IMG/VR virus record: IMGVR_UViG_3300020470_006081 | Span: 1 to 64,000 of that record | DNA length: 64,000 nucleotides | Source of the DNA: a virus | Strand: one strand, 5' to 3' | Shown: positions 33,566 through 62,845 of the stretch, piece after piece | Numbering within the stretch: the stretch's first letter is position 1 | Layout of the letters: each line of letters begins with the position of its first letter | Program-made: the position numbers and the translations under genes | Notes under the pieces: model-generated | The model's input: the letters and a program-made list of their open reading frames with translations, nothing else | Databases searched by the model: none | What the model was told of the DNA's origin: nothing

Positions 33566-33566
33566 T

Positions 33567-34343: not shown

Positions 34344-34999
34344 CCTAATACTCTCTTTAAAATCTCTTTATGTTCTAACACTGTATTTTCGTTTTCGTCA
34401 AATATTTGACCTACAAATTCATAATTTTCTCTAGCAATTGGAAATGGCTTTCTTTCAAAAAATTCATCATGAACACAAGAGTTATCTTTTACGATGGGAT
34501 ATATAATTTCCTTTAAAAAGTTTTGATCAACTTGCCAAAAATCACCTTTTTTATAATTTTGTATTAGATTTTTCATATTGTTAAGAAAATTATTTTTTAC
34601 TCCCCACATACCACCCAATATCTCAGTTGCATGATGCGGGTGGTCTCTCATAATGTGAAAATCTTTCTCGCTTGCTAGCCATTGATCAACAGCTTTTTTT
34701 TCTCTATACGTTAAGCGGCTATCAGTATCACGAGATATCATTGCATATACATTTTGATCTGATGCTGCGTAAAAACGCCAAAACATCCCAGTCCAGTCGC
34801 CAGGCTCATTCATTATAATAATCTCTGTGTTATCAAACTTTACTATATTTTCTATAATAGAAATAGGCACAGATTTACCAATATAAAACCTGCATATCCA
34901 TTCAGGAAAAATTTCTTTTGCTAACTGTATATTTTTCAAAGCGCCCACAGTATATTTCGGACTGTCTCCCCATAAACTAAAACATATAACTTTTTTCAT
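34340..34999 (-). CDS. Glycosyltransferase-like protein (GT-A)
   Basis: 219 residues. Begins VICFSLWGDSPKYTVGALKN and contains VYAMISRDTDSRLTYREKKA around residue 107, a DxD-type motif (RDTDSR). These features match small GT-A-like transferases common in marine phages. It overlaps both neighbours by four bases. Donor and acceptor cannot be read from the sequence. Confidence 0.68.
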   Translation of the reverse strand: MKKVICFSLWGDSPKYTVGALKNIQLAKEIFPEWICRFYIGKSVPISIIENIVKFDNTEIIIMNEPGDWTGMFWRFYAASDQNVYAMISRDTDSRLTYREKKAVDQWLASEKDFHIMRDHPHHATEILGGMWGVKNNFLNNMKNLIQNYKKGDFWQVDQNFLKEIIYPIVKDNSCVHDEFFERKPFPIARENYEFVGQIFDENENTVLEHKEILKRVLG

Positions 35000-37868: not shown

Positions 37869-37869
37869 T

Positions 37870-47417: not shown

Positions 47418-47681
47418 TCACTGCTCTTCTAAACCTTTTTTACCTCTATTAGCATCATCTTCTTTTTGTTCACCATGCTCATCATCGCGCTTATGGCCAT
47501 CTTGTTCTCCAATTATTTCTTCTCGTAATAAATTGCGAACAATTGTATTACCAAATTTCATATCATAAACACCGATATCGCCATTCTCATTCAATGAATG
47601 CCAAAGTACCTTGCCGACAGCATCTTTGTCGGAGATTCCATATCTTTCTTGAAGGTCTGAACTCAGACGCCCTTCCTTCAT
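47418..47681 (-). CDS. Small hypothetical protein, separated from upstream ORF by one in-frame TGA
   Basis: 87 residues. The ATG directly follows the TGA of the 37-aa leader-type ORF and is in the same frame, so the two could be one gene broken by a stop. The body contains KEGRLSSDLQERYGISDKDA and VGKVLWHSLNENGDIGVYDM, followed by an acidic, polar end (EQDGHKRDDEHGEQKEDD). No family recognised. No good ribosome site precedes its ATG, so it may depend on reinitiation, readthrough or be a remnant. Confidence 0.5.
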   Translation of the reverse strand: MKEGRLSSDLQERYGISDKDAVGKVLWHSLNENGDIGVYDMKFGNTIVRNLLREEIIGEQDGHKRDDEHGEQKEDDANRGKKGLEEQ

Positions 47682-47795
47682 TCACTTGTGGTTGATCTTC
47701 TCTAATTCACCTTCAAGTTCTTTTTTTCTTTTTTTATCAGCGTCAGTTAATTCTTCATTAACAAAACTTCTAAAATTTTCAAATAATTTTTTCAT
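47682..47795 (-). CDS. Short leader-type ORF (37 aa), perhaps first half of an interrupted gene
   Basis: Not long enough for automatic calling. ATG at 47793-47795 with AAGGAG seven bases upstream; product starts MKKLFENFRSFVNEELTDAD and ends at TGA 47682-47684. This is the LFENWRKYLNE-type leader found at the start of several neighbours. The frame continues beyond the TGA into the 87-aa gene. It may be a functional peptide carrying only the leader, or the 5' part of one protein with a premature stop. Confidence 0.5.
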   Translation of the reverse strand: MKKLFENFRSFVNEELTDADKKRKKELEGELEKINHK

Positions 47796-47815
47796 TTTTT
47801 TACTCCTTAAGGACT

Positions 47816-48091
47816 TTATTCAACTTCTTCTTCTAAACTACCCCAACTCCATCCTTCATCATCAGCCTCTAAAGACTGTTTCAGGCCGGGGTCTTCTAAA
47901 GCTTTTTTTAGTCTTCTTTCTTCTTGTTCTCTACGTTTTCTTTCTTCTGTTTCTTTTTCTAGTTTTTGCAAGTGTCTTTCCATAGCACTAGTAATTTTTG
48001 GACTGAGAATTATTTCACGTGACTGTTCATTTAAGATTTTATTTAATTCTTCTTTAATAATTCGTTTTAATTGTAATTTTGTTATTTTCAT
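47816..48091 (-). CDS. Leader-type acidic protein (KITK class)
   Basis: 91 residues beginning MKITKLQLKRIIKEELNKIL then NEQ. This is the second leader class of the cluster: a short amphipathic helix followed by a glutamate-rich V/I-L-x-E site. The body is charged and coiled (KLEKETEERKRREQEERRLK), acidic at the end. Likely capsid-internal or virion-associated by analogy with its neighbours, which is inference. No domain recognised. Confidence 0.6.
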   Translation of the reverse strand: MKITKLQLKRIIKEELNKILNEQSREIILSPKITSAMERHLQKLEKETEERKRREQEERRLKKALEDPGLKQSLEADDEGWSWGSLEEEVE

Positions 48092-48103
48092 AAAATTGAC
48101 TCT

Positions 48104-48511
48104 TTAGTAAATATTACCTAACTTTTCTTTAATTCCTTTTATTATGTCTCCAGGCTTAACATTATTTTGATCAAACCATCCTTGATTCATTTCTAAGGCA
48201 TATTGAGCTGGTCCCATTGACTTAATTGGCGACATACTATGTGGAGTCATATCTTCTATGTTTAAAATAGAGCCGTCACTATTAGCATATGCAATTGATA
48301 ATGGAATTTGTGTATTTTTCATCCAAAAAGATCGATCTTTCTGGTCCGGAAAACAAAAAAGCATGCCTGAATTATTATCTAAATTTTTTCTGTGCATCAA
48401 ACCTTTTTTTATACTATCAGGGCTGTGAGATATTTCAACATTAATTGGCATCCCATTAATTGATATAGTTTCATTTAAAAACATACGCCAACTTTCAAAT
48501 AGTGTTTTCAT
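48104..48511 (-). CDS. DUF192-family protein with N-terminal virion leader
   Basis: 135 residues. Residues 1-14 are MKTLFESWRMFLNE, the LFENWRKYLNE leader. From residue 17 on the sequence follows the DUF192 pattern: GLMHRKNLDNNSGMLFCFPD, RSFWMKNTQIPLSIAYANSD, ALEMNQGWFDQN. DUF192 is a small beta-barrel family, often exported, of unclear function. Here it lacks a signal peptide and has the leader instead. It overlaps the next gene by one base (TAATG). Confidence 0.82.
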   Translation of the reverse strand: MKTLFESWRMFLNETISINGMPINVEISHSPDSIKKGLMHRKNLDNNSGMLFCFPDQKDRSFWMKNTQIPLSIAYANSDGSILNIEDMTPHSMSPIKSMGPAQYALEMNQGWFDQNNVKPGDIIKGIKEKLGNIY

Positions 48512-48861
48512 TATTCTTCAGCCCAATCTCTACATGCTTGACCTTTTGGAGTATTTGATTTAGCCCCCGCACAGCCATGTCTAGCTTTAAAAGATTTCTT
48601 TCTTTTTGTGTTGCCAGATTTTCCAGTAACACGTACGCCTTTCTGACCCCAGTGAATTCTTTTGTAACCTTTTCCATTTTTTTTAACACACTTCATCCAC
48701 TTTTTACCTTTAGAAGTAGAAGATGCTTTTTTTGTTGGTCCAGTACATCTACTAGATTTTTTCTTTTTCTCTTCTAGAGAATCTTCTTGTAAATCTTCCT
48801 CAAGAACAGCTGCTAATTCTTCTTTGATAATTTGTTGTAATTGTGATCTTGTAATTTTCAT
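48511..48861 (-). CDS. Leader-type basic protein with lysine-rich Cys-containing body
   Basis: 116 residues beginning MKITRSQLQQIIKEELAAVL then EED. The body is strongly basic (KKASSTSKGKKWMKCVKKNG, KGYKRIHWGQKGVRVTGKSG) with a later KSFKARHGCAGAKSN stretch. The segment with KGVRVTG...KSFKARH resembles the C-terminus of the 208-aa gene at 52290 (QQGVKTNQTAGQRKAFKSRH), suggesting a shared small domain. Basic composition fits DNA condensation or internal-head role. Last base overlaps the DUF192 start. Confidence 0.65.
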   Translation of the reverse strand: MKITRSQLQQIIKEELAAVLEEDLQEDSLEEKKKKSSRCTGPTKKASSTSKGKKWMKCVKKNGKGYKRIHWGQKGVRVTGKSGNTKRKKSFKARHGCAGAKSNTPKGQACRDWAEE

Positions 48862-49088
48862 TTCTTTTTTGATAAATCCTGAGTTTTTGTTTGAAGAATA
48901 TTTGATTTAATAATAAATCTTAATATTCTTTTTAGTTCAGAGTCTTTAATGTTTTTATCTTTTGCTACTTTTTTAAGATAATTTAAATCTTTTTTTGATA
49001 AACCATGGCCCTCGTCTAGACGGCGATCTCTGTAATTCTTTAGTTCTTCTTTGATAATTTGCTCTAATTGTAATTTTGTAATTTTCAT
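48858..49088 (-). CDS. Leader-type small helical protein
   Basis: 76 residues beginning MKITKLQLEQIIKEELKNYR then DRRLDEGHG. The leader is the same as in its neighbours and the LDE|G motif sits at the expected cleavage position. The rest is basic and helical (KDLNYLKKVAKDKNIKDSEL, RFIIKSNIL). Overlaps its neighbours by four bases on one side. No domain recognised. Confidence 0.6.
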   Translation of the reverse strand: MKITKLQLEQIIKEELKNYRDRRLDEGHGLSKKDLNYLKKVAKDKNIKDSELKRILRFIIKSNILQTKTQDLSKKK

Positions 49089-49091
49089 ATC

Positions 49092-50066
49092 TTAAGATCT
49101 CTTTTTTGGCTTTGTACTAACATTTTTAGCTTTGCCTTTCCGATCCGGATTAGGATCTTCTTTGCGTTTTCTACGCGCTGCGCTTTCTTTTTCAGCTTTA
49201 GTCATGGTAGCAGCTTTTTCTGGTGACGCACATTTTGGTTTTGTTGTTTGCCCGGGCTGTCTTGCGCAGGGCTTTCCATCATACTTGCCGCCAATCTGTT
49301 CCCAGCCTTTTTGTCCATCACCATCTGCATCATCAAACCATGAACGTAAATTCTCTTCCTCTAACTCTTGTTTTAATAAGCCTTCTTTTGGTACGCAATT
49401 AGGCACCATTCGTCCGCCTTTTTTCTTCATACCAACTTGTTTGTGGGTATCCCAACATGCTTCATCTAATACATTTTGTATTTCTTCTCTAATAATATCT
49501 TCTAGTGATAGAGATTCGTTCTTCCGTTTCTTCTTCTTTTTGCCACCAGTACCCCAGTTTTTAGCGCCTTTATTACGACATTTTACAAGAGCACCAGATG
49601 CATATGCGGATGGCCAAACTTTGTATCTTGCTTTGACTTTATAATAACAAGCATCTCTTTTTTTTGCTTTCTTTTTTTTCTTCTTGCGTTTTTTACGTTT
49701 ACGTTTTTCGTCAAGCGTTTCTTCCTGTGCTTCTAGAAAAATCTCAATACCTTCAGCAATTTCTTCTTTTGTAATGTTTATCTCTTTGCCATCAGCTGCA
49801 ATGATATCTTTATGGTCATGAACTCCAATATCATTACTACCTTCAATAAATTCATCAATAAAAGCATCTAGATCAAAACCATCGGGAAGTTCAACACCTT
49901 GTTTTTTTAAAAAAGGCTCAAGCTCTTCTGGATCTTTTAACATTTTACGACCAATAGCACCACCTTCTTTAGCGATTAGATCTCTGGCCGCAGTCTCAAC
50001 TTCTTTTTTAGAAGCTTCTTTATCTTCGTTTATGTATTTTCGCCAGTTTTCAAATAATAATTTCAT
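49092..50066 (-). CDS. Leader-type modular basic protein with tandem second leader
   Basis: 324 residues: leader MKLLFENWRKYINEDKEA; an acidic middle; a lysine block (KRKRKKRKKKKKKAKK); a compact module ACYYKVKARYKVWPSAYASG then ALVKCRNKGAKNWG, found in several phage virion proteins (probably DUF6321, from memory); an internal leader-like segment LEDIIREEIQNVLDEA; the widespread QVGMKKKGGRMVPNCVP; and a C-terminal GGKYDGKPCARQPGQTT...KPKCASPEKA, probably DUF5872. It looks like two leader proteins joined end to end. Likely virion-internal. Confidence 0.7.
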   Translation of the reverse strand: MKLLFENWRKYINEDKEASKKEVETAARDLIAKEGGAIGRKMLKDPEELEPFLKKQGVELPDGFDLDAFIDEFIEGSNDIGVHDHKDIIAADGKEINITKEEIAEGIEIFLEAQEETLDEKRKRKKRKKKKKKAKKRDACYYKVKARYKVWPSAYASGALVKCRNKGAKNWGTGGKKKKKRKNESLSLEDIIREEIQNVLDEACWDTHKQVGMKKKGGRMVPNCVPKEGLLKQELEEENLRSWFDDADGDGQKGWEQIGGKYDGKPCARQPGQTTKPKCASPEKAATMTKAEKESAARRKRKEDPNPDRKGKAKNVSTKPKKRS

Positions 50067-50221
50067 TTACTATTTTTCCTTGCTATTCTCTTTATTTGTT
50101 TTTGTAGTTTTGTAACTTCTTGTTCTAGACTATCAAGTCTAATTTGTGTTGTATAATAAAAACCACTCAATGTAGCTGTTATTGTTAGTAAAGTAATTAG
50201 TGTTTTTATGTCAAGTTTCAT
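50063..50221 (-). CDS. 52-aa membrane/coiled-coil peptide
   Basis: Too short for automatic calling. ATG at 50219-50221, AAAGG upstream and a T run, TGA overlapping the next start. One transmembrane segment (IKTLITLLTITATLSGFYYT) and a short coiled coil (RLDSLEQEVTKLQKQIKRIA). The 79-aa product at 63113 has the same membrane-plus-coiled-coil plan. A spanin-like or small membrane structural function is possible. Evidence: position, start, stop coupling and composition. Confidence 0.55.
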   Translation of the reverse strand: MKLDIKTLITLLTITATLSGFYYTTQIRLDSLEQEVTKLQKQIKRIARKNSK

Positions 50222-50232
50222 AAAAAAAACCT

Positions 50233-50268
50233 TTAAAATATAATCCAGTTTTCAAATAGTTTCTGCAT
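50233..50268 (-). pseudogene. Truncated leader remnant (11 codons)
   Basis: The frame reads MQKLFENWIIF then TAA. Its first eight codons match the start of the 190-aa gene 0.6 kb upstream in transcription (MQKLFENWRKYLNE), and the DNA around it is a near-perfect copy of that gene's start (see the direct repeat). It looks like a leftover of duplication or recombination at the leader. No gene follows it in this frame. Confidence 0.6.
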
Positions 50269-50280
50269 ATTATTAAATAG
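50245..50280. repeat. Direct repeat copy A (36 bp)
   Basis: Plus-strand sequence from 50245, CCAGTTTTCAAATAGTTTCT onward, recurs at 50830 with a single mismatch over 36 bases. It covers the first codons and 5' leader DNA of the MQKLFENW-type start. One copy is active (gene 50281-50853) and one is truncated. The repeats flank the 190-aa gene exactly, as recombination sites for gene exchange would. Confidence 0.85.
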
Positions 50281-50853
50281 TTAGTTTGATTCTAAATCAG
50301 GAGAGGTAACTGTTCTTTGATCGTAATTGGCTGATATAAAGTCTCGCAGAAGTTTATTAATATTAACATTCTGTAAAAGCGTCTCATCAGGAAGTTGCTT
50401 TAAACGATCAGATATAGTGTTCAAGAAATTATTCTCTACATCATTTGCAACGATCGCTGATATCTCTGGATCTATTTGTAGTTGATCTAAACCAGTGCCA
50501 GTAATTTTTTCATCTGGTAATTTATATGCTTTTACAATTAATTCTCCTACAGATGCTACTTGTGCAAGAGGAAATCCTAGTGCACTACCCAACGCTGTAA
50601 AAAATCCCCCTTTAGCAGCACCCGCAGCTGCTTGCTGTATTTCAGAAGATGCTTGCTGTTTTCTTTTTGCAGTTTTTGCTTTATTGATGATTCTTCTTAA
50701 ATCACCGATTGTACGTACATTTAAATTACCTTGAACCGGCTCGCTCTCGATAGAATTTGGATGTATAGAAGTTTCTGCTTCGTCTGGCAATCCATCATTA
50801 TCTATATCTGCTTCGTTTAGGTATTTTCGCCAATTTTCAAATAGTTTCTGCAT
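50281..50853 (-). CDS. Leader-type protein with Ca-loop-like motif
   Basis: 190 residues, ATG 50851-50853. MQKLFENWRKYLNEADIDND with DIDNDGLPDEAE, a D-x-D-x-D-G loop of the kind that binds calcium, then a hydrophobic part (AAAGAAKGGFFTALGSALGF) that could insert in a membrane, then a helical C-terminus (NTISDRLKQLPDETLLQNVN). L-N-E|A fits the T4 prohead-protease site. The gene lies between the two copies of the 36-bp repeat. Function unknown. Confidence 0.65.
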   Translation of the reverse strand: MQKLFENWRKYLNEADIDNDGLPDEAETSIHPNSIESEPVQGNLNVRTIGDLRRIINKAKTAKRKQQASSEIQQAAAGAAKGGFFTALGSALGFPLAQVASVGELIVKAYKLPDEKITGTGLDQLQIDPEISAIVANDVENNFLNTISDRLKQLPDETLLQNVNINKLLRDFISANYDQRTVTSPDLESN

Positions 50854-50865
50854 ATTATTAAATAG
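50830..50865. repeat. Direct repeat copy B (36 bp)
   Basis: Second copy of the 36-bp repeat, differing from copy A at one base. Here it contains the intact MQKLFENW start of the 190-aa gene and its upstream 5' region. Together with copy A it forms the flanks of a 585-base unit. Confidence 0.85.
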
Positions 50866-50867
50866 AA

Positions 50868-52136
50868 CTAAGAATTAGAAAATGGAGTAGGATCCCAAAT
50901 TGGATAAGCTGTTGTGTCTCCAGAAATAGCAGCAAAAGTTGCGTGATTGCCATTTCCGGAATGATCTGTAACAGTAGTTCCGGTGCCTTCATTAAATTTC
51001 CAATACCCTACAAGACCACTTTGGTTTCTAAGATCAAATTTTCTTCGTGTTCGTGGTCTGTTTGGGCCATTAGTATCATACACAGTTTTAACCCAGTCAG
51101 CATCTTTTGCTGTATTAAAAATAGCTACTTCACTAAGAGCACAAGCCCAGCCATTGTTGTAGCTATCGACATTATTCCTTGCCCCAAAATACATACCACC
51201 AGTCGAGCCGCCTGTAGCATCCCAATTGAAAGTGTTTGTGTGACGAAGCACACCGTTTACATATATCTTACGATCCGCACCAGAAGATGTATCTGAACGG
51301 TCGTCATACGTTACTGCTATATGATACCAAGTGCCATCTGTTTTTAGATTCCAGTATTCACCTTCCTGAACTAACAATGATTCTTCCACCGGGGTGTCCA
51401 TGTTAACCCACGCTGTTGTTGTTTTATTTTTACCAATACCGAAGTATGATTGACGTTTTCTAAGTATGCCAAACACAAATCGTTGATTATTGTTATGTCT
51501 TCTACCAAATGCAAACATACTATTTCCTACTTCATCCGGCCTAAGCCAATAAGAAACAGTAAATCCTAAATTAAGATTATAATCATCAGGATTAAAGTCA
51601 GTTGTTGCATAGCTCCGCGACGCGTCACCGGTATTTCCGCTAAATACTAAGACATCACTTGGAGTTCTTCCCCTCTCACGCGTACCGTGGCGTCGTTTTG
51701 CCATTAGGTTGTCGTGTTTGAACATTTCCATCGCGCGATCATAATCTAATTCAGCTAATCTTTGGTTGAGAGGATCAGATAACCAGGCATCCCAATCTAG
51801 ATTTTGAATAGAAGGCTCGCGATTTTGGATTATAATCCTTATTTCTTCAAGCTTATTGTTTTCTTGTTTTCGACGATCTAGCTGGCCTAATAAAGTATCA
51901 AGCTGTTCGTTCCATTTATCTTCAGCTAATTTTTCTTTTGCTTGAATATACTTTTGACGAAGACGTTCAGCTTCCTTTTGTTCTTGAAGAAGTCTTTTGC
52001 GTGTTGCAATCTCTTTTTTTTTACGAGCTTCGGCTTCCATTAAAGCAACTCGCTCTGCTTCTTTTTTAGCTTCTAGTTCAGCTTCGCGTTGCCATTTCTT
52101 TTGCCATTGTTTTTGCCGTCGCTTAATATATTCCAA
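50868..52136 (-). CDS. Coiled-coil plus LamG (concanavalin-A-like) protein
   Basis: 422 residues. TTG start (52134-52136) with GGAG six bases upstream. Residues 5-125 are a highly charged coiled coil (EAKKEAERVALMEAEARKKK). Residues about 160-420 form a LamG/jelly-roll: GFTVSYWLRP, TWYHIAVTYDDRS, KIYVNGVLRHT, LSEVAIFNTAKD, LVGYWKFNEGTGTTVTDHSG. Only the LFENW-type leader is missing. The coiled coil may trimerise or anchor the LamG head at a virion surface. It resembles the 1950-aa LamG protein in domain type. Confidence 0.78.
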   Translation of the reverse strand: MEYIKRRQKQWQKKWQREAELEAKKEAERVALMEAEARKKKEIATRKRLLQEQKEAERLRQKYIQAKEKLAEDKWNEQLDTLLGQLDRRKQENNKLEEIRIIIQNREPSIQNLDWDAWLSDPLNQRLAELDYDRAMEMFKHDNLMAKRRHGTRERGRTPSDVLVFSGNTGDASRSYATTDFNPDDYNLNLGFTVSYWLRPDEVGNSMFAFGRRHNNNQRFVFGILRKRQSYFGIGKNKTTTAWVNMDTPVEESLLVQEGEYWNLKTDGTWYHIAVTYDDRSDTSSGADRKIYVNGVLRHTNTFNWDATGGSTGGMYFGARNNVDSYNNGWACALSEVAIFNTAKDADWVKTVYDTNGPNRPRTRRKFDLRNQSGLVGYWKFNEGTGTTVTDHSGNGNHATFAAISGDTTAYPIWDPTPFSNS

Positions 52137-52160
52137 AGTTTACTCCGTATATTTTCTTGC

Positions 52161-52262
52161 TTAGCAAGCTCCGGAACAACAAGCACATGTACAACATCCA
52201 CAACAACAGCAGCAATGACTGCCATTAAATAGATTTGCTAATTTTTGTAATAATAATTTCAT
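52161..52262 (-). CDS. 33-aa cysteine-rich peptide with LFENW-like start
   Basis: Short frame (ATG 52260-52262, GGGAG upstream, TAA 52161-52163). MKLLLQKLANLFNGSH followed by CCCCCGCCTCACCSGAC: eleven cysteines among the last seventeen residues. The start resembles a shortened LFENW leader. Such a composition could bind zinc, copper or iron or form disulfides; in a reducing cytoplasm metal binding is more likely. The sequence is striking but functionally unassigned. Confidence 0.6.
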   Translation of the reverse strand: MKLLLQKLANLFNGSHCCCCCGCCTCACCSGAC

Positions 52263-52289
52263 AATTTTATCTCCCAGATTTATTTTGTA

Positions 52290-52916
52290 TTAAGATCCTT
52301 TTACCCATTTCTCATTATCTTTATCTTTTGTGTCTTTTGCGCTCCATTTTACTTTGTCAGCCCAATATGCTGCTGACATTTTTCCCTTTGCAATATTTTT
52401 TGCATGCCGACTTTTAAATGCTTTGCGCTGACCGGCTGTTTGATTAGTCTTAACACCTTGCTGGCCAAATCTAATTATTTTTTCTTCTCCACCTTCACAA
52501 GCTTTTACAATATGGGATTTTGTAGGATGACTTGGTGTTCTTTTGGGCTTGTTGCAGGGCATATTTTTTTTATCAATTTCTTCTTGTAAGTTAATTTGAT
52601 TATCAGGCCGATCAGCAAATTTACGATCTGCGATTGTTTCGTAATCATCATCATACCAATCACTTCCTTGCCTATCTTTGCCTCTCATATAATTCATTAC
52701 AGAAGAAAGATAATCTAAAGATTTAGTTATTTTTGATTCAACCCATTCTTCAAGATTTTCCGAATCATCAAATTCTTGAGATATCATACCGGCCAACTCA
52801 GAAATTCTTTTAAGCTGCCCCTGCGCCATACTACCTTCGCCGCCATGTGCTTCATTAACAACATCAGCTAGTTCTTCTTTAATAAGTTGTTTTAATTGCG
52901 ACTTAGTAATTTTCAT
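52290..52916 (-). CDS. Leader-type protein with basic C-terminal module
   Basis: 208 residues beginning MKITKSQLKQLIKEELADVV then NEAHGG. The centre is acidic with a helical part (ELAGMISQEFDDSENLEEWV). The C-terminus (KIIRFGQQGVKTNQTAGQRK, then KSRHAKN and SAAYWADKVKW) resembles the body of the 116-aa gene at 48511, so the module appears twice in the cluster. Overlaps the next gene by four bases. Basic C-terminus again fits DNA-associated internal protein. Confidence 0.65.
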   Translation of the reverse strand: MKITKSQLKQLIKEELADVVNEAHGGEGSMAQGQLKRISELAGMISQEFDDSENLEEWVESKITKSLDYLSSVMNYMRGKDRQGSDWYDDDYETIADRKFADRPDNQINLQEEIDKKNMPCNKPKRTPSHPTKSHIVKACEGGEEKIIRFGQQGVKTNQTAGQRKAFKSRHAKNIAKGKMSAAYWADKVKWSAKDTKDKDNEKWVKGS

Positions 52917-53755
52917 TTTTTCATATACTTTTTAATTAATGCGGCTTCTTCTTTTTCAAATTTCTTAACATATTCTTCAAAAGTCTTTCTCATATTATCA
53001 GTACTAGCATTTCTTGCGCTGCGGGCAGCCTGCTCTCTTTTTCTTCTTACAGCTTCAATTTCTTTTTTAGCTTCAGGAGAAACCACTGCTGATGCTGGTC
53101 CACCGCCAACTCGCTCTACACCAGATTTGCCAAAAACTTCTCCTCTTTTCTCAAGGTCTTTTTTGGTTTGTAAAGCTTTCTTAATTAATTGTTGTATATT
53201 AGCAACTTGTTTTTTATCGCCTTTTTTCTTAGCTTTCTCCAAACTTACTCTTAAGTTTCGCAATGAGGCTTCATTAGCTTCAACATCAGCTGTCTCTGCA
53301 GCGCCTTTAGCTCCTGCCTTAGAACCTAAAATATCCATACTATGAATAGAAGTGCCTTTATCAACTCTTTGCTGGATTGCATTTTTTCTTCTAAGCTTGT
53401 CTTCAGGACTAAGATTTTTACTTGAGCCCATTGCTTTTGCTAAGCGAGATTTTTTTAATGATCTTAACTTTCTATAAGCTTTAGAAAATTCTTTTCTTGC
53501 TCGGCCGGCCGGAGAATCATCTTTTGGCATCTTATAAATGCTAGCATATTGACCACCAGATTTTTTAAGAAAAGGCCTTAGCTTCGTACGCGCTCTTGCA
53601 AAATCTCTTCTAGCAGCTTTCACAGTCTTTTGATATTTGATTTGAATAGGATCTAATTCTATGGGGTTTTCAAAAGATCCTTTTTCTTGTTCAGAAAGAA
53701 CTGCTTGTAGCTCTTCTTTGATTATCTGCTTAAGCTGTGTTTTCGAAAGTTTCAT
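52913..53755 (-). CDS. Leader-type lysine/arginine-rich helical protein
   Basis: 280 residues beginning MKLSKTQLKQIIKEELQAVL then SEQEKG. Almost all the remainder is charged helix: KTVKAARRDFARARTKLRPF, KLRSLKKSRLAKAMGSSKNL and a late KKEIEAVRRKREQAARSARN. No catalytic motif or membrane segment. A basic, coiled internal head or DNA-binding protein is a fair inference. Overlaps the 208-aa gene. Confidence 0.6.
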   Translation of the reverse strand: MKLSKTQLKQIIKEELQAVLSEQEKGSFENPIELDPIQIKYQKTVKAARRDFARARTKLRPFLKKSGGQYASIYKMPKDDSPAGRARKEFSKAYRKLRSLKKSRLAKAMGSSKNLSPEDKLRRKNAIQQRVDKGTSIHSMDILGSKAGAKGAAETADVEANEASLRNLRVSLEKAKKKGDKKQVANIQQLIKKALQTKKDLEKRGEVFGKSGVERVGGGPASAVVSPEAKKEIEAVRRKREQAARSARNASTDNMRKTFEEYVKKFEKEEAALIKKYMKK

Positions 53756-53758
53756 ACA

Positions 53759-54511
53759 TTAGTCCCTAAAGATTGTGCTAATTGGAGCAACGTCCATACC
53801 TAGCATGCATGCTTTTACAACAGCAGCTGCTTTGTTCTCACCATCGTCACGCAGCCAGTCAATAAGGTCACCAGATTCTGTATCTTTCTTACGTTCCAAA
53901 ACTTTATTGTAAGCTTTGTAAAGCGCTTTCATACATACACAATCTTGGTTCTTTTGAAGAATTCTATAAATTGCTTCTTCATCTGTACCCAAACCTTTCA
54001 TAGCATCATATAGTTCAAATGCGTCGTACATCACATCTTCATTCTCGCAGACTCCCTCCATATCTTCCTCGGGGCAAGGAATAGGATTCAAATCTGCGTC
54101 AAAGCAATCACCCACTTCTGCCTCTTCAGGCTCTGGCCCAGGTCCAGGTCCTGGACCAGGCTTGGGTTTAGGTTTGGGCTTGGGTTTACCTGGTTTAACA
54201 GTAAAGCCTTTGTTTGGATCTACAATTTTTGCTTTTCTGCCTCCAGCTCTTTGCTGCATGCCTGCAGCCCTAGCCATTGCCGCTTTTTTAATTGCCTCTT
54301 TGTTTCTTCCCTGGGCGGTAAATTCTTCTTCTTCCGCGCCGCCCAAATTATATCCCAATGAACTAACCTTTGTAGGATCTACAATTTTTGCTTTGTCACT
54401 AAGTTGGCCCGTTGGGTCCCACCATGGATCATCATCAAAAATCTGTTCGTTTAGAACATTTTCAATTTCTTCTTTAATAATTTGCCTAAGTTTTGATTTA
54501 GTAACTTTCAT
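53759..54511 (-). CDS. Leader-type protein with Pro-rich linker and annexin-like repeat
   Basis: 250 residues. MKVTKSKLRQIIKEEIENVL then NEQIF; an acidic region with two KAKIVDP motifs (KAKIVDPTKVSS and KAKIVDPNKGFT); a linker of alternating Pro-Lys and Pro-Gly (KPKPKPKPGPGPGPGPEP); and a C-terminal domain AFELYDAMKGLGTDEEAIYR then ILQKNQDC. The GLGTDE loop and following helices match the type II calcium-binding loop of an annexin repeat. A nearly identical domain ends the 565-aa protein at 55647. Annexin-like domains in phages are rare. Confidence 0.7.
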   Translation of the reverse strand: MKVTKSKLRQIIKEEIENVLNEQIFDDDPWWDPTGQLSDKAKIVDPTKVSSLGYNLGGAEEEEFTAQGRNKEAIKKAAMARAAGMQQRAGGRKAKIVDPNKGFTVKPGKPKPKPKPKPGPGPGPGPEPEEAEVGDCFDADLNPIPCPEEDMEGVCENEDVMYDAFELYDAMKGLGTDEEAIYRILQKNQDCVCMKALYKAYNKVLERKKDTESGDLIDWLRDDGENKAAAVVKACMLGMDVAPISTIFRD

Positions 54512-54586
54512 TTTTTTCCCCTATCAACTTTAAAAGTTGTTTTTCTCAATAAATAGATTATAATGTTGTAAAATTCTCAAATTATA
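54512..54586 (-). promoter_or_regulatory. Largest gap inside the leader cluster; weak TATAAT box
   Basis: Seventy-five AT-rich bases between two leader-type genes. On the minus strand a TATAAT hexamer lies at 54557-54562, about 45 bases ahead of the ATG at 54511, but no matching TTGACA lies at a proper distance (TTGAGA is 12 bases away). A short AACTTTTAAAGTT inverted repeat lies nearby. A promoter is possible only. Confidence 0.25.
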
Positions 54587-55621: not shown

Positions 55622-55646
55622 AAATTAATTTCCTTAAAAAATTTAA

Positions 55647-57344
55647 TTAAGAGCCGCCCATCATAGCGCGCTTGACCATCATTGCTGCTCGATCTTCACC
55701 ATCGTCTCTTAACCAATCAATAAGATCGCCAGATTCTGTATCACGCTTCCGCTCTAATACCTTATTATAAGCATTATATAAATCTCTTATATTGTCAGAA
55801 TTTTTTTGTAGTACAGAATAAACTACTTCTTCGTCAGTACCTAAGCCCTTAAGAGCTTCATACATCTGAAAAGCGTCTTGAATGACTTCTTGATTGACTT
55901 GAGCTTTCGCTGGCTGATCACCACCAAATAAATCTGAGTAATCTTCTTCCTCTGGTGCTTCGGCACCGCCTTGCTCACTTGGCACTGGCTTACATTGGTA
56001 CCATGCTCTATAATCAACACGAGCAGGATGCGTATATGGAAGTTGTGTCCAACTCCCAACTCCTGCTGCTTGAGCGGCCCTCTCCATTGCGCCTTGATAT
56101 TTACTAGCTAGAGACATATCACGATTTTTGCAACCAGGAGGATATTTTACTTGTGCTTGTCGAACAATTTCTTTTTTCTGTTCTGGAGGCAAAGCCGCTG
56201 CTTTGTCTGCAACACTTTCTGGATCTTCATCATCATCAGCTAACAAATCGTAAGCTAGCATACCAACACTTAAGGCAATACCCACAGGACCAAGAAAACC
56301 AAGAAGCCTCGATCCTACTGTTCGAACAGCCGTCGCTCCTGCAGTCCTTGCCGCATTTAAACCAAGAGTTCTACCGGCATGCTGCGCGCGTAAAGCAACG
56401 TTACTAGCAACTCGACCGGGAGTTGCAGCTGCAGCAGGTGCTCCAGGAACAACAGCCGGCGGCCTAAGTTTAGCTGCTCTATTAACATTTTTTACCCATG
56501 TATTGCGATTAGTGGTGTGTCTTAATTTTCCTGCGCTATCAACATACTGAATATGCGGCGCGCCACGATACTGAACAATCTTTCCTCGATATCTTCTTCC
56601 ATCAATCGTTGTACTAACACTCTGTTGTCCTGGCCTTATTCCGCCTCCTGCTCTAGCAACTTGGCCTCCTGTAGTGGCTAATTGACCTCCTGCAGGCGCT
56701 GGTAAGTTTGCACCACCAGCAGTTGGCACAAGCCCACCACCAGTTGTTGCAACACCCCCAGGTATTCTTGCTGGTGTCATCGCTGCTCTTTGTGCCGCGG
56801 CCTGTTGTGCTTGTGTTGTATACTGTGCTCCAGCACCTCGCATTGCTCTACCTTGAGCACTCATACGTTCTGGATTGACCCCAGCTGGCGGGGTAGTCTG
56901 AAATCTAGCTGGGTTTGTCTGCGGCCGCGCCCCGGCTGGAGCAGGTCGAGGCGACGCCATAGCTTGGCTGATTGCCCTACCTGCAGGCGCCTGTCTATTA
57001 TAAGCTGCGAGCGCTTCTGGGTTGCCTGCTAATAATCTACTTACTGCGCGATCAACAGCTTGTTTTTGTGAGGGATCTCTAGCTGCTCTGTCCATAAGTG
57101 TGTTCAATACTTGAACTGTGGTTTGTAAATCGCGAGGCCGTCCTTGAAGCACCTGTTCGTCTAATTGTAGTTGCTGTACAGTTTCTCTAATTATATTTAA
57201 TATTTCTGGTTCATTATCATAAACATGGTTATAGTTCTCTTTTAAAAGACTTTTTATTATTTTGTTTTCTTGAATTGTTTTTTTGTACTCTTCCTGCACA
57301 AGTTTTTTCAATATTTTTTTATAATTGGATTTTTTAGTTGTCAT
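55647..57344 (-). CDS. Virion-associated modular protein ending in annexin-like repeat
   Basis: 565 residues. N-terminus lysine-rich and helical (KKILKKLVQEEYKKTIQENK, KSLLKEN). Residues 130-340 are proline/alanine/glycine-rich with many RAGG and PAG runs. One hydrophobic segment (LLGFLGPVGIALSVGMLAYD) around residue 345. Then YPPGCKNRDMSLASKYQGAM with the QLPYTHPAR motif, and a C-terminal annexin-like repeat (AFQMYEALKGLGTDEEVVYS) almost equal to that of the 250-aa gene. It could be a membrane-penetrating or ejected protein. Confidence 0.65.
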   Translation of the reverse strand: MTTKKSNYKKILKKLVQEEYKKTIQENKIIKSLLKENYNHVYDNEPEILNIIRETVQQLQLDEQVLQGRPRDLQTTVQVLNTLMDRAARDPSQKQAVDRAVSRLLAGNPEALAAYNRQAPAGRAISQAMASPRPAPAGARPQTNPARFQTTPPAGVNPERMSAQGRAMRGAGAQYTTQAQQAAAQRAAMTPARIPGGVATTGGGLVPTAGGANLPAPAGGQLATTGGQVARAGGGIRPGQQSVSTTIDGRRYRGKIVQYRGAPHIQYVDSAGKLRHTTNRNTWVKNVNRAAKLRPPAVVPGAPAAAATPGRVASNVALRAQHAGRTLGLNAARTAGATAVRTVGSRLLGFLGPVGIALSVGMLAYDLLADDDEDPESVADKAAALPPEQKKEIVRQAQVKYPPGCKNRDMSLASKYQGAMERAAQAAGVGSWTQLPYTHPARVDYRAWYQCKPVPSEQGGAEAPEEEDYSDLFGGDQPAKAQVNQEVIQDAFQMYEALKGLGTDEEVVYSVLQKNSDNIRDLYNAYNKVLERKRDTESGDLIDWLRDDGEDRAAMMVKRAMMGGS

Positions 57345-57708
57345 GTGTATGAACCTCGCTAAAATAATTAGTTGTATTATATTTCTTTAGTAATTTTTTA
57401 AAAGTATTGATATCAATACCTAAAAAAGAAGCAGCTTCTCTTTTTGTTCTAGCGGCAGAATACGCATATTTTATTATACCGTCTTTTACAATATCTTGAA
57501 TAGAGTGCCAAATGTTTGCACCATATAATTTATAGTTAACTGTTTTCGCAGCTAACTCAAGACGAAGACCAATAATTTCTTCTAAAGTTAAACTAGATAG
57601 CATAATTTCAAAACGCTCATTTACTTTACCTTCAGATTTAAGCTTGTTGGCAATACTATAGAAATCTTGATTTTGTTTTTTAAATCGGCTACGTTTACCT
57701 TCCCACAT
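57334..57708 (-). CDS. Small helix-turn-helix protein
   Basis: 124 residues, ATG 57706-57708 overlapping the stop of the acidic 295-aa gene (TAATG). The C-terminal SAARTKREAASFLGIDINTF and KKLLKKYN form a Fis-like helix-turn-helix. The N-terminal half is helical (LTLEEIIGLRLELAAKTVNY). A DNA-binding regulator or, in this context, a head-associated DNA protein. Lies between two large cluster genes. Confidence 0.62.
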   Translation of the reverse strand: MWEGKRSRFKKQNQDFYSIANKLKSEGKVNERFEIMLSSLTLEEIIGLRLELAAKTVNYKLYGANIWHSIQDIVKDGIIKYAYSAARTKREAASFLGIDINTFKKLLKKYNTTNYFSEVHTHDN

Positions 57709-58595
57709 TATATTTCACCTAGTTGTGGTATACCCTCTTCTTGCTCTTCTTCAGGCTCCATTCCAAGATCTTCAAAATCCTCCTCAGGAGATCTGCCACC
57801 AGGAGTTTCAAATTCTTGTGCAGAAGCTGAAACTTTTGCACCTGAGGGCTTATCAACCATTGGCTCTGAAAATGCTGGCTCTTGTGCTTTTGTATCAGCT
57901 AGTTCTTTTTCATATGTTAAAAGCCACAGATCTATGTTATAGAGACCAAATTCTCTAAATTCTTGCTTGTCCGCATCATCAAAAAGAGTTTTTCTTTTAT
58001 CAGCCAAGGTAGTTTCTATATTTGATTTGTTAATTGTTTCAAAAGCTACTCTCGCGCCAGTTGGATTTCTTCCAGGCTTGGCAAAGCTTTGAAATTCGTT
58101 TTCAAACTCTTGTTCAGGATCTATTTTATCTTCTTTAAATCGATCGTCTTCCTTACCGTCTGAAGGCATAATTCTATCTGGATCATCAACTTTGACATTG
58201 ACACCTTCAACATCAGTTTCTTGCTCCATTAGGCCGCTCTCACCTAAAGCACCAGCTGGGCCTACAGCACCGGAATCTAAAGCCTCGAAGCCATCAAAAA
58301 TTGATTTAAACTTTTCTACTACATGTTCTCTGTAGGACTCTCTTTCTTCAGGTTTTGACAATTTTCTTAAGCCCGATTTTATAATCGGCAAAATTTCGTT
58401 GAAAGCATCAGCCAACATATTAATCGGAGTCGACTCATATGGTGCTGGTTTTGTATCAGAATCTACATCGCCCTCGACAATAAGATTTCTTATAACACTT
58501 CTTAATTGATTTTCCTCAAACATTTGCTTTTTATTTTTTAATTGAAGCACTTCGCGAATCAATAGTCTAAGCTTTTTTTCTTCTGATTTATTCAT
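57708..58595 (-). CDS. Acidic protein with leader-like N-terminus
   Basis: 295 residues. Two leader-like helices (EKKLRLLIREVLQLKNKKQM and QLRSVIRNLIVEGDVDSDT), the second with I-V-E|G, then a strongly acidic body (EEDFEDLGMEPEEEQEE) and several L-x-E sites. Acidic, helical and rich in possible cleavage sites, as prohead core or scaffold proteins are in T4. It could be a head-core component. Overlaps the ligase-like gene start by eight bases. Confidence 0.55.
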   Translation of the reverse strand: MNKSEEKKLRLLIREVLQLKNKKQMFEENQLRSVIRNLIVEGDVDSDTKPAPYESTPINMLADAFNEILPIIKSGLRKLSKPEERESYREHVVEKFKSIFDGFEALDSGAVGPAGALGESGLMEQETDVEGVNVKVDDPDRIMPSDGKEDDRFKEDKIDPEQEFENEFQSFAKPGRNPTGARVAFETINKSNIETTLADKRKTLFDDADKQEFREFGLYNIDLWLLTYEKELADTKAQEPAFSEPMVDKPSGAKVSASAQEFETPGGRSPEEDFEDLGMEPEEEQEEGIPQLGEI

Positions 58596-61092
58596 AAAAA
58601 TCCCTCTTTTCTAAATCGCCCCAAGGCCCTTGAGGTTTCTTTTTTCCTTGCGCTCCGGCGTAACCAGCAACTGCAGAAACACCGCTAGTTTCTAATACGG
58701 GCTCTGTAGCCGGCTTTTCTTCTGGTTTTCTTTCAATTGCACCTTGTTGTCTTTTTGCCTCTTCTTCTCTTTCTGCTTTTTTTCTTTCTTCTGCAGCTGT
58801 AACTTTAGTAAATAGTGTGTTAGTTATTCCATCGATATAAGATTCAATACCTTCAACCCCAGCTTTTGCAAGAGGTTCTTTTAAGTTTGTTAATAAAGTG
58901 CTTATCATCCCTCTTAAATTTGCTTCTTCTTGTTCGGTTAATTTTCCGCGCTCTTCCATATCATTAGCAATTGCGTACGCTTGTTTTGGATCCTTGCCTT
59001 CTTTGTCAATTAGATATTGAGTTTTAGCATTGATGCGTTTTTTTGATGCAGATACTTCTTCAACCAAGGAAAATAGGGAGGTCAGTGAAAAAAAATTTTC
59101 ATCTAGTTTTCTCTCCCCTGAAGCTTGCCAATCTGTATCATCAATATCTAAAATATTTAAAACATTATTATAAACACTTTCATTTGGTAGAAGACTTAAA
59201 AACTCCTCCCGATCTTTGTTTACTATGGCTCTTCTCATCCTACTGGCGCTAGCAGCCTCTCCACCTACTTCATATGCCTTTGCTGGCTCAACTGCTATTA
59301 TTTTAACATCAACCAATCCGGGGTTATTTTCATTGAAGTATTTTTCAAAAGCATATATTCTAGCTGCATCTTTGTCTTTATCACTTGCGCCTAAAGACCA
59401 AGCAGCATTACGAAATCTTTTAGTAAATTGAGAATCTTTCATAAATTCATAACATGCAGTCATCGGCGTAGGATATCCATCTGCATTTTTAAACTCAACT
59501 TTATCAGAAAAACCTCCATATATATCAAAAATTTTCATACTCTGTTGATGAGTGACACCTCCCCTAGGTTTAAAACCTACAACTACAAAAATCTTCACAA
59601 CATCAGGATTTTTATCGTATTGTCGTATCATATTATAGTGTCCGACTGTCGGAGGCTTAAAACCACCAGGGATAAGAATTACATATTTGGCTCCGCCTGC
59701 AGTTTTTTCTAGATCTTGGTAAGTCAGCTCTTTAATGAGCTTTCCTTTTCTGTATTTTTGCTCATCTAAGCCACCAAAAGGACCCTCGACGCCATCTAAA
59801 ATAAAATTACCAGTTATTTTAAAAGGCACTCCACCACAAATATTTGCATCATCTACAACACAACCTTCCTGTTCATTAACTGCGCCAAAATCTTCTGCAT
59901 CCATAGCATCTAGAACAGCATTACCCATTATTCTTGTGGCATGCCAGACTACTGCAGCATCGACAATAGCTTCAATATCTTGTTTTATTTCCTCTCTTGT
60001 TCTATCAACCATTTCTTTTGTGTCAGGATCTTTTTTCTTTTTAGATATTATTTTATCAACTGGTATTTTGTTTTTTCCTTTTGCGCCAATTGAAATATAA
60101 AAATTCTTAGCCATTGCGTCTTGTACACGGCCCATTCTAGGAAATTTGTTCATCATATAATCAGAAATAATAACTTTTTTTCCTAGCGGGCTTTCACTTA
60201 CATTTTCAAGCCACTGTTTAATGCTTTGTTGATTTCCTTCGCCTATTCCAAGCTCGCCCGGCTCTTCTTCATCTCGCATTTCTGAACTATACAAAACTAA
60301 AAATTGCTGGTTTAAGGCATCGTCCAGAAAAATCTCTCTTTTTACAGAGGCAGGAATTTTTGTAAAAATCTTAAAATCTTGTTGATTTGCAAATTTTTCC
60401 ACTTTGTCTCGAATAATATCAAGTATTTTTTGATCAGCTTGTTTGCCTGCTCTAATTAAATCTTTTATTTTTTGTATTTCTGCAGGATCTCCACCAGAAG
60501 CCTCTAGATTTTTCCATTGGTTGATTAAATCTTGTCTTGGGTCGACACCATGTCTTGATTTAGGTCCTTTTGGAACAAACTTTTTTATTCCATGCACAGC
60601 TATGAAATCAAATGGATATTCTCTAACATTAATTTGCTTGCGAACAAACTCAGTATTAAGATATAATCCATAATGCCCACCTGTACCAGTTTCCGGATTA
60701 TATGGGCTAGTTAACTCTAATTCTTCTAATTCTGGCATAATATCTGGTAATGCATTATTAAAAATACTTAAAAGAATATTTGTTGCTTCAACCATTCCAT
60801 GAGGTTCACCTGTTTTCGGATTTGGAGGAAATCTTTGCTCTGCATTTCTTGCTGTAATTCCATCGATGTCCAATTGCTTCATTGAAGACCGATCAACAAC
60901 AAATTCATAAGGTGGAGATAAATTAGGATTTTGAATAAGACGAAAACTTAGATTTACACCATCTATTTTGAGTGCACATCCCTCTTCTCTTAAAGATTGT
61001 ATACTTTTTCGAAAAAACTCAATTAAATCTGTTCCTGAATTGACATCTGGACAATCAAAAGGATGCCACATATGTCCGCCGGCGCCGCCCAT
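58588..61092 (-). CDS. Ligase-like nucleotidyltransferase fused to HIGH-type nucleotidylyltransferase
   Basis: 834 residues, AAGGAG eight bases ahead of ATG. Residues about 35-430 carry the RNA/DNA-ligase-type motifs: K42-I-D-G45 (ALKIDGVNLSFRL), an N-T-E148 motif III candidate, E409-G410 (QEGCVVDD) and FKITG (K425). Residues 470-640 form a cytidylyltransferase-like domain: IPGGFKPPTVGHYNMIRQ (HxGH type) and EAASASRMRRAIV near residue 618, the SxxxR motif. The C-terminus is acidic and charged. The first domain should adenylate RNA or DNA ends, the second couple a nucleotide to a phosphate. No leader is seen, but it lies in the same cluster. Confidence 0.72.
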   Translation of the reverse strand: MGGAGGHMWHPFDCPDVNSGTDLIEFFRKSIQSLREEGCALKIDGVNLSFRLIQNPNLSPPYEFVVDRSSMKQLDIDGITARNAEQRFPPNPKTGEPHGMVEATNILLSIFNNALPDIMPELEELELTSPYNPETGTGGHYGLYLNTEFVRKQINVREYPFDFIAVHGIKKFVPKGPKSRHGVDPRQDLINQWKNLEASGGDPAEIQKIKDLIRAGKQADQKILDIIRDKVEKFANQQDFKIFTKIPASVKREIFLDDALNQQFLVLYSSEMRDEEEPGELGIGEGNQQSIKQWLENVSESPLGKKVIISDYMMNKFPRMGRVQDAMAKNFYISIGAKGKNKIPVDKIISKKKKDPDTKEMVDRTREEIKQDIEAIVDAAVVWHATRIMGNAVLDAMDAEDFGAVNEQEGCVVDDANICGGVPFKITGNFILDGVEGPFGGLDEQKYRKGKLIKELTYQDLEKTAGGAKYVILIPGGFKPPTVGHYNMIRQYDKNPDVVKIFVVVGFKPRGGVTHQQSMKIFDIYGGFSDKVEFKNADGYPTPMTACYEFMKDSQFTKRFRNAAWSLGASDKDKDAARIYAFEKYFNENNPGLVDVKIIAVEPAKAYEVGGEAASASRMRRAIVNKDREEFLSLLPNESVYNNVLNILDIDDTDWQASGERKLDENFFSLTSLFSLVEEVSASKKRINAKTQYLIDKEGKDPKQAYAIANDMEERGKLTEQEEANLRGMISTLLTNLKEPLAKAGVEGIESYIDGITNTLFTKVTAAEERKKAEREEEAKRQQGAIERKPEEKPATEPVLETSGVSAVAGYAGAQGKKKPQGPWGDLEKRDFYE

Positions 61093-61103
61093 AGTAAAAC
61101 TCC

Positions 61104-61895
61104 TTATTTAGTCCATTTTCTAACTAATTCTTCAAATAAAAACTGATCTTTACTACCTTTGTGCCAGTTTTCCTTAACTTCGTCGCCGTCGTCGGTCTCG
61201 TCGTCGTCGTCGCCAAATGCTGCTTTCGCGCGGGCCATTTCCCAATCTTCTACTTTACCGCTATCGTCTATATCGGCTTTTTCCATGTCTACTGCCTCTT
61301 CCATTGGATCTACTTCTATACTAGATAACCAATCTAAATTCTTTTGATTGGCAGCTGCCTTTTCTTCTTCGGTTAATTCAATCTCTTGAACATTGCCCAC
61401 CTCATCTTCAACTAATTCAACAATTTCGCTGATTAATTTTGCAAATTTATTGCTTTTCATTTTTTTATTCTCCTGTTGTTGTTTTTTTATACCGTCTTCC
61501 CAATCGCGAAAACAAATATTTCCATTTTTATAAGCGTCTAGCTCTAAATTTCGAAGATTTTCATCTTCTTGGGCATATCCAACGCCCATATTCGACCCAC
61601 CCATAAATTTTCCTTGACAGTTTTGTCTATGGTGAACTAATTCGTGAGATAAGGATCGCATAATGTCCTTAACATGACGACCGTCTACAAAAAGTGATAT
61701 TTTCATCGCATTTGGCTCGTAAAAAGCAGTTTTGCCTAGTGGATTTTGAGCATTTTTTGGATCTGAAAGTAAATTTATGGTTACTGGCTTGTCAAAACCC
61801 ATTTTTTGCTCTGCATAAGGCACATATTGCTTAATAAGTTTTTTTAAAACGTCTAAATGTTCGTATTTTTCAGGATTTCCAACAATTTTATGCAT
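61104..61895 (-). CDS. Putative zinc metallopeptidase with nested in-frame start
   Basis: 263 residues. H84-E-L-V-H88 (SLSHELVHHRQNC) is the HExxH motif, with E118 (NLELDAY) as possible third ligand. Residues about 145-170 (KMKSNKFAKLISEIVELVED) resemble the KITK-class leader, and an AGGAG lies nine bases before that ATG (61458-61460), so a second product of 118 residues may be made. The body has an EF-hand-like DIDDSGKVEDWE and a long Asp run (from a GTC repeat). It ends LFEELVRKWTK. Overlaps the NTase stop by one base. Confidence 0.68.
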   Translation of the reverse strand: MHKIVGNPEKYEHLDVLKKLIKQYVPYAEQKMGFDKPVTINLLSDPKNAQNPLGKTAFYEPNAMKISLFVDGRHVKDIMRSLSHELVHHRQNCQGKFMGGSNMGVGYAQEDENLRNLELDAYKNGNICFRDWEDGIKKQQQENKKMKSNKFAKLISEIVELVEDEVGNVQEIELTEEEKAAANQKNLDWLSSIEVDPMEEAVDMEKADIDDSGKVEDWEMARAKAAFGDDDDETDDGDEVKENWHKGSKDQFLFEELVRKWTK

Positions 61896-62845
61896 TATAC
61901 GCCTCCAAAGCCTGGCGGAGCTGATTTTCCTCTGTTATAATTAGGCTTGTTCGGATAAGCTGAACCAGCTTTTTGTTTTCCACGGCCAATATTGAGATTT
62001 TTAAGACGATTATGCTTGTCTCGTACTCTTTTTTGAAATATTTCAATCTCGTTTAGCCGATCAAAGCCCGGTTTTTCTAAAATTTCATCATTATTTATAT
62101 AAATTTTAAATTTTTTGTCATATTTGCCTTCATATGATCTCATTTTGTCATAAGATTCATCTCTTATGTCAAATAGTCTCTTCATATGTTCATAATTTCT
62201 TAAATATTTAAATGCTAAATTCTCATATGAATACTCACCTCGTTCTTCAAGACCTGACTGACGAAATTTTTTAATTTTTTTAATTAAACTTTTTGATTCT
62301 AGGTGTGCTTGCTTAAATTTTTTAGCTTCAAACACATCTTCTGTTCTTTCTATCATATCAATAATTGATTTTATCTTTCTTTTTGCCATTTGTTCATCAA
62401 TTTCTGGTTCAATTCTATTAGGTTGTGCAATCCATTCATTGTTCATGATGGAAAAAACACCTGTTGAGTGGTGGTCTTCATTCATGTCCTGCACATATAT
62501 CTCTATTTCATAACCAAAAACAGTAATGTTGTGTTTTTTGTTCCAGTTCGAGGTTTTTGCACTAAAAAAATTTCTAACTAATTCTTTGTTTTCATCAACT
62601 TTATTAAAATCTACTATCAAATGTAAATCAACATCTGAAAACTTAGTGTAATTATAATTAGCTAGCGAGCCTGTAAAGGTAACATCCTCTAATTTTACGT
62701 CGTCTAACTTGAGATCGTTAAAAAAATCTCTTGCAATAAGCAAAAGCTGCCATGAAACTTCAGAATTTAATCTTTCCCCACGCTCGCCGGCCCAAAATTT
62801 TTCATTTAAATTGTCGTTTATTGTTAAAAGATTATTAATTTTCAT
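61895..62845 (-). CDS. Nucleotidyltransferase-fold protein (pol-beta type) with leader-like N-terminus
   Basis: 316 residues. MKINNLLTINDNLNEKFW resembles the leaders and ends in L-N-E. The core G59-S60-LANYNYTKFSD71-V-D73 is the GS-x10-DxD motif of the nucleotidyltransferase fold, with a later EIEIYVQD strand that gives a third acidic residue. The C-terminal part is helical and basic. Enzymes of this type add nucleotides to RNA, proteins or antibiotics. An MNT-like or AMPylating role on a host target is possible. Overlaps the peptidase start by one base. Confidence 0.7.
   Translation of the reverse strand: MKINNLLTINDNLNEKFWAGERGERLNSEVSWQLLLIARDFFNDLKLDDVKLEDVTFTGSLANYNYTKFSDVDLHLIVDFNKVDENKELVRNFFSAKTSNWNKKHNITVFGYEIEIYVQDMNEDHHSTGVFSIMNNEWIAQPNRIEPEIDEQMAKRKIKSIIDMIERTEDVFEAKKFKQAHLESKSLIKKIKKFRQSGLEERGEYSYENLAFKYLRNYEHMKRLFDIRDESYDKMRSYEGKYDKKFKIYINNDEILEKPGFDRLNEIEIFQKRVRDKHNRLKNLNIGRGKQKAGSAYPNKPNYNRGKSAPPGFGGV

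Follow-up and report, generated by a model that had tools for sequence, protein, structure and literature searches.

Two N-terminal leader families with a fixed L-x-E motif mark candidate prohead cargo in uncultured T4-like marine phages

The window, that is, the whole stretch of DNA analysed here (64 kb from a virus record of 65,354 bases), carries a cluster of ten genes on the minus strand, from 47682 to 54511, each of which starts with one of two leader peptides (Table 1; genes are named by their lower coordinate). Leader T1, MKITKxQLKQIIKEEL..VLNE, opens six of them and leader T2, MKxLFENWRKYLNE, the other four, including one short ORF. Nearly all genes of the window lie on the minus strand, and they encode baseplate wedge proteins of the gp6 and gp25 types, a late sigma factor, PhoH and adenylosuccinate synthetase. 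By its gene content, the virus is a T4-like myovirus, an assignment to which the capsid family phrog_138 contributes through relative G001 only, where it was seen. In this 180.7-kb relative, 29 window genes have homologues, mostly in conserved order, and there is also a leader cluster with both T1 and T2 genes. The window interval 27066-39123, flanked by the PhoH region and the tail genes, contains a run of sugar- or glycosyltransferase-like genes, two of which match phage glycosyltransferases. The T4 late promoter, searched for as the T4 consensus TATAAATA, gave 14 matches in the window against 11 expected by chance, none of them inside the leader cluster.

Table 1. Leader genes of the window and neighbouring genes; a slash follows the E of the L-x-E motif.
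Coordinates	Strand	Feature	Basis
47682..47795	-	Short ORF, 37 aa, T2 leader MKKLFENFRSFVNE/E	Sequence
47816..48091	-	91-aa protein, T1 leader MKITKLQLKRIIKEELNKILNE/Q	PSSM 43.2
48104..48511	-	DUF192 domain with T2 leader MKTLFESWRMFLNE/T	Matrix score; PF02643 E=5.9e-31
48511..48861	-	Basic phrog_7595 body, T1 leader MKITRSQLQQIIKEELAAVLEE/D	PHROG match, matrix score
48858..49088	-	76-aa protein, T1 leader MKITKLQLEQIIKEELKNYRDRRLDE/G	Matrix score
49092..50066	-	phrog_727/38880/3477 modules, T2 leader MKLLFENWRKYINE/D	PHROG matches, matrix score
50281..50853	-	Small conserved family, T2 leader MQKLFENWRKYLNE/A	Matrix score
52290..52916	-	phrog_7595 body, T1 leader MKITKSQLKQLIKEELADVVNE/A	PHROG match, matrix score
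52913..53755	-	Basic body (pI 10.3), T1 leader MKLSKTQLKQIIKEELQAVLSE/Q	Matrix score
53759..54511	-	T1 leader MKVTKSKLRQIIKEEIENVLNE/Q; C-terminus with sub-threshold Pfam similarity to annexin	Matrix score
54587..55621	-	Basic protein, weak T2-like start MKTLKEEKFSKDYKLFLNE/Q	L-x-E at residue 19
55647..57344	-	Start resembling a degenerate leader (NYKKILKKLVQEEYKKTIQE)	Sequence alone; PSSM score under threshold
57708..58595	-	Degenerate double leader-like start (..LLIREV..; ..SVIRNLIVE/G); conserved neighbour	Sequence; G001 homologue
58588..61092	-	834-aa protein, weak cytidylyltransferase similarity, without leader	Syntenic in G001
61895..62845	-	Nucleotidyltransferase-like protein, without leader here	T2 leader on homologues elsewhere

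A sequence-only reading of this region had counted at least twelve leader genes with unrelated bodies. Ten of these genes are strong, whereas 54587 (KDYKLFLNE) has only a weak resemblance to T2 and 61895 has no leader; the latter is ruled out as a leader gene, its 'LNE' reading 'LNP' in the G001 homologue, and a T2 leader is present on homologues of its nucleotidyltransferase body in contigs L183 and L086. Leader-like starts that the earlier list lacked are the degenerate ones of 55647 and 57708, together with a T1-like motif within 49092, IIREEIQNVLDE/A, which lies at about residue 195 and ends in VLDE/A near residue 207. To call all bodies unrelated was too strong, given that 48511 and 52290 have the phrog_7595 body in common, and stretches common to 53759 and 55647 and to 54587 and 55647 can be seen by eye. 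A small ORF (47418-47681) lies directly downstream of the short T2 ORF, in the same frame past its stop, and is possibly the remainder of a broken leader gene. Beside the cluster, 58588 is the kind of protein with which the finding of a putative cytidylyltransferase in a cyanophage virion (PMC3037559) fits, its similarity being weak.

The leaders stand far from chance when scored with position matrices that were derived exclusively from other virus contigs and omit the L-x-E columns. Scores range from 40 to 50 for the T1 genes of the window and from 22 to 39 for its three longer T2 genes, against a best score among 1,552 gene starts of randomly drawn contigs of -18.8 with the T1 matrix and 5.0 with the T2 matrix. 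An L-x-E within about 25 residues had been proposed as the common mark of these genes, and [LIV]-x-E does follow the leader in all ten, but the loose test proves little because 29% of random genes have L-x-E somewhere in residues 10-27. What counts is the exact position of the motif: L-x-E is found at residue 14 in 2.3% and at residue 21 or 22 in 3.4% of random genes, and in the window all T2 genes have the end of the motif at residue 14, five of the six T1 genes at residue 22 and the sixth, 48858, at residue 26.

Both leaders recur in other viruses, where T1 and T2 genes stand together in the same gene clusters. A scan of IMG/VR with degenerate DNA patterns returned at least 119 stretches for T1 and 53 for T2, and neither the T1 DNA pattern nor the accompanying regular expression placed any constraint past residue 16. 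Among the matches listed, there are 234 distinct T1 leaders, in which the frequency of E climbs to 28% at residue 21 and reaches 42% at residue 22, and [LIVMF]xE ends at residue 21 in 23% and at residue 22 in 33% (56% together), compared with a background of about 1.5% per position in T1 bodies. The E at these residues is tied to a hydrophobic residue exactly two positions earlier (p=7e-6 at 21 and p=1e-12 at 22, with an odds ratio of 7.9 at 22), N is enriched at P2 (18% vs 3%) and A or G at P1' (33% vs 16%), and information in T1 is down to background past residue 23. Within residues 18-26, [LIVMF]xE occurs in 185 and is missing in 49 of the 234 leaders of the matches listed. Upstream, I12-K13-E14 is near invariant in T1 and could be a further cut site. 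For T2, 35 pattern matches were collected without selection for the motif; 26 of them have L-x-E at the same position, the rest being mostly chance matches, and nearly all true LFENW starts have it at residue 14. As a separate observation, two randomly drawn contigs, L272 (gene 5962) and L295 (gene 4417), each contain a gene start MKKSELRQIIRKAINEVVNE/A, and T1-like leaders may thus exist in other phage lineages.

The 65-kb record of the window has no head genes, neither protease nor capsid, and the gp21-like protease for which the sequence-only reading had suggested a search could be looked for only through a relative, G001, which has both a protease of the S77 family (E=4.5e-35) and a capsid gene; the protease of the window virus is presumed through this relative, which is not proof for the window virus itself. 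The S77 (gp21) family is present in 15 of 24 T1 records and 10 of 25 T2 records (25/49 in all). Of the 14 leader records that reach 140 kb or more, 13 have it; all 20 random records lack it, and these, at 41-91 kb, are shorter than the longest leader records. Where a T4-type capsid gene and a leader occur in one record (24 records), the S77 protease accompanies them in 23, and the exception, G040, ends just beyond its capsid gene. At the level of loci, the protease lies inside 21 of 119 T1 loci among the matches listed, against none of the 120 random loci, which have a comparable total length (p=1.7e-7), and all 56 leader genes in protease-bearing loci are on the protease strand. Moreover, leader genes are located in or near the cassette of protease, core and capsid genes, among core and scaffold genes, and some lie between the protease and the core gene, as in L011 and L021. 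The capsid propeptide of the relatives ends in LL[KR]E/[ASQ], the same type of motif as in the leaders, and cleavage at this site is predicted.

A small gene downstream of the protease starts with MKKSELKKLIKPLVKECIHEVLLEE/G and is the best T1 look-alike. This gene has no PHROG match and, from its place beside the protease, would encode a core protein; its N-terminus accounts for 15 of the top 29 T1 look-alikes among 4,666 non-leader genes, which suggests that T1 is a copy of a core-protein segment. Some terminase N-termini also score with the T1 matrix, T1 being a common kind of amphipathic helix. That T2 might imitate the capsid delta domain was considered and rejected, capsid genes of these phages ranking about 976 of 4,244.

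The proteins that follow the leaders are diverse. Among the matches listed, 484 leader proteins fall into 316 body clusters, of which 265 are single, with domains of protein kinases, NUDIX, SET, DnaJ, HNH, guanylate kinase, amidase, HAD and nucleotidyltransferase. One leader is found on different bodies, leaders are swapped between unrelated bodies, and the cargo lies in variable islands that are differently placed among relatives and show high turnover. One T2 cargo family (L214 12598-13125) was modelled with AF2 (pLDDT 79), and its best structural matches are the ADP-ribosyltransferase-fold proteins KptA/Tpt1 and DarT; the TM-scores are modest (0.3-0.5), and the ADP-ribosyltransferase fold is a putative one. 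The model of window gene 50281 was useless (pLDDT 41). A general character of the cargo as basic DNA-binding proteins like the T4 internal proteins was rejected, a pI over 9 being found in 16% of bodies and 21% of other genes. T1 leaders also occur inside fused chains, at residues 164 and 255 of L141 1723-2910 and at residue 214 of L161 11642-12643, and it is possible that these are polyproteins cut in the head.

In T4, the corresponding precursor endings are FIAE/A in IPII and IPIII, LFDE/D in Alt and LLRE/S in gp24. T4 Alt is an ADP-ribosyltransferase, the fold that the modelled cargo family would likewise have. The T4 protease gp21 cuts after L/I-X-E, and propeptides of 10-19 residues target the internal proteins to the core (PMC9026906). 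As in IPI, IPII, IPIII and Alt (PMC9026906, PMC3012670), a short N-terminal leader with an L/I-x-E end is here followed by unrelated bodies; the cargo is likewise variable, and a gp21-type protease and a T4-type capsid are present in the relatives. Unlike in T4, there are two longer leader families, which cannot be aligned to the T4 capsid-targeting sequence (CTS) and have only length, N-terminal place and terminal L-x-E in common with it; the best matches to the T1 and T2 matrices include no T4 gene. In addition, one island here holds at least ten cargo genes, compared with the four known from T4, the bodies are not basic on average, unlike those of the T4 internal proteins, and leaders also occur within fused proteins. 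The leader system seems to work like the T4 CTS system, and it is not counted as a member of the T4 CTS by sequence because the leaders are not alignable and packaging is a prediction.

In the giant phages phiKZ and SPN3US, many internal proteins lose N-terminal propeptides to a gp21-like protease, at a short motif that ends in E, as here; their head and lineage are different, and the parts of the two reports used here describe no leader family across dozens of unrelated cargo proteins (PMC10052503, PMC5694885). The polyvalent proteins of phages and conjugative elements (PMC5512222) are predicted to be injected and to act early as enzymes with a range of activities, ARTs among them, as proposed here, but they are multidomain, whereas the leader proteins are mostly shorter and have a common leader. 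On the 484-kb uncultured phage LR756508.1, short leaders of the form MxxLxxLLxE were observed at 212652-223149, where nearby genes have the T4-like starts MRLKKLLVE, MVRLYRILKE and MQKLQDLLFE; two of the short-leader genes have ART-like HVT motifs, and three T1-like genes are also present.

Among deposited phages, Flavobacterium phage immuto and Microcystis phage Mel-JY01 come closest in capsid and gp6, and Rhodothermus phage RM378 is near by capsid. Immuto (NC_055915.1), a cultured T4-type phage with a capsid 48% identical over the aligned parts, has looser, diverged T1-like starts, among them MKKSQLRQIIKEAL, upstream of the genes for its terminase and head, and its capsid propeptide ends in V-S-E/A. 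A third leader, FDLKKFLVENKLT (FDLKKFLVENKLTxNSxLL), is common to its genes 103806, 117631 and 118632. Immuto also shows that a search of deposited phages by tblastn overlooks diverged leaders because the queries are short; such a search for near-identical leaders in 50,697 deposited phage records, performed without a positive control, gave no near-identical leader and a single weak match. A literature search found no published description of the T1 and T2 leaders, the motif letters giving nothing relevant, nor of the immuto leaders, the third type included. With its T1-like starts and another shared leader, immuto offers a practical test system.

The best explanation, which we regard as likely, is that T1 and T2 target cargo to the prohead, where a gp21-type protease cleaves it. 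The sequence-only reading had already proposed that the leaders lead to the prohead, and this proposal is strengthened by the fixed L-x-E with loss of conservation behind it, the co-occurrence with protease and capsid, the synteny with the head cassette, the capsid motif and the likeness of T1 to the core protein. The leaders would be capsid-targeting sequences of a T4-type head on cargo made as precursors, the helical leader binding the growing prohead core, which T1 probably does through its likeness to the N-terminus of the core protein whose gene adjoins that of the protease. Cleavage after [L/I/V]-x-E by the gp21-type serine protease would then release the cargo within the head, where it would be packaged along with the DNA before ejection into the next host. 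We infer packaging, cleavage and injection from comparison, as well as roles of individual cargo proteins in host takeover or counter-defence, and injection into the host is less certain than prohead targeting and cleavage, since it rests on the T4 precedent and the type of cargo.

It is unlikely that the leaders bind the core and are trimmed on proteins that are assembly, DNA-condensing or structural parts of the head and are not injected. Such a role would suit the very basic bodies of window genes 48511, 48858 and 52913, a body module of 49092 that resembles a cyanophage protein annotated as structural, and the place of leader genes among core and scaffold genes, but the hundreds of unrelated bodies include many enzymes ill-suited as structure (kinases, NUDIX, HNH, SET, ART fold), and turnover between relatives is high, unlike that of structural genes. 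The fixed place of the motif and the abrupt loss of conservation, together with a capsid precursor that has the same motif and the synteny with the head cassette, make it quite improbable that the leaders serve as uncleaved helices for docking or localisation at another phage structure or a host site, unrelated to the head, even though the second L-x-E is missing in about a fifth of T1 leaders and T1 is amphipathic like many protein-interaction helices.

Least credible, and already disfavoured, is that the shared N-termini are a by-product of recombination copying translation-start regions between genes. The variable, differently placed cargo islands and the swapping of leaders between unrelated bodies agree with it, but synonymous codons differ at 35% of the identical residues of the six window T1 leaders, and L8 is written with five different leucine codons, so that the peptide has been conserved and no recent copy of the DNA is seen; two distinct leader families with the same terminal motif also argue against it.

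If T1 and T2 are prohead-targeting leaders, virions are predicted to carry new N-termini after L-x-E. A broader reading is offered tentatively, and with more doubt than confidence: a large uncultured marine T4-type lineage may load dozens of rapidly exchanged effectors via interchangeable leaders, one of which mimics the core N-terminus, and some may be polyproteins with internal leaders, from which the head protease would release several proteins for injection, the candidates being L141 1723-2910, L161 11642-12643 and window gene 49092. Little is known of the proteins that phages inject with their DNA, since packaged cargo does not readily reveal itself in sequence, and the leader would provide a readable label for candidate injected proteins. 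The two patterns alone give hundreds of such candidates, most of them without known relatives, in uncultured marine phages, and the resulting catalogue would likely consist of host-takeover and counter-defence proteins.
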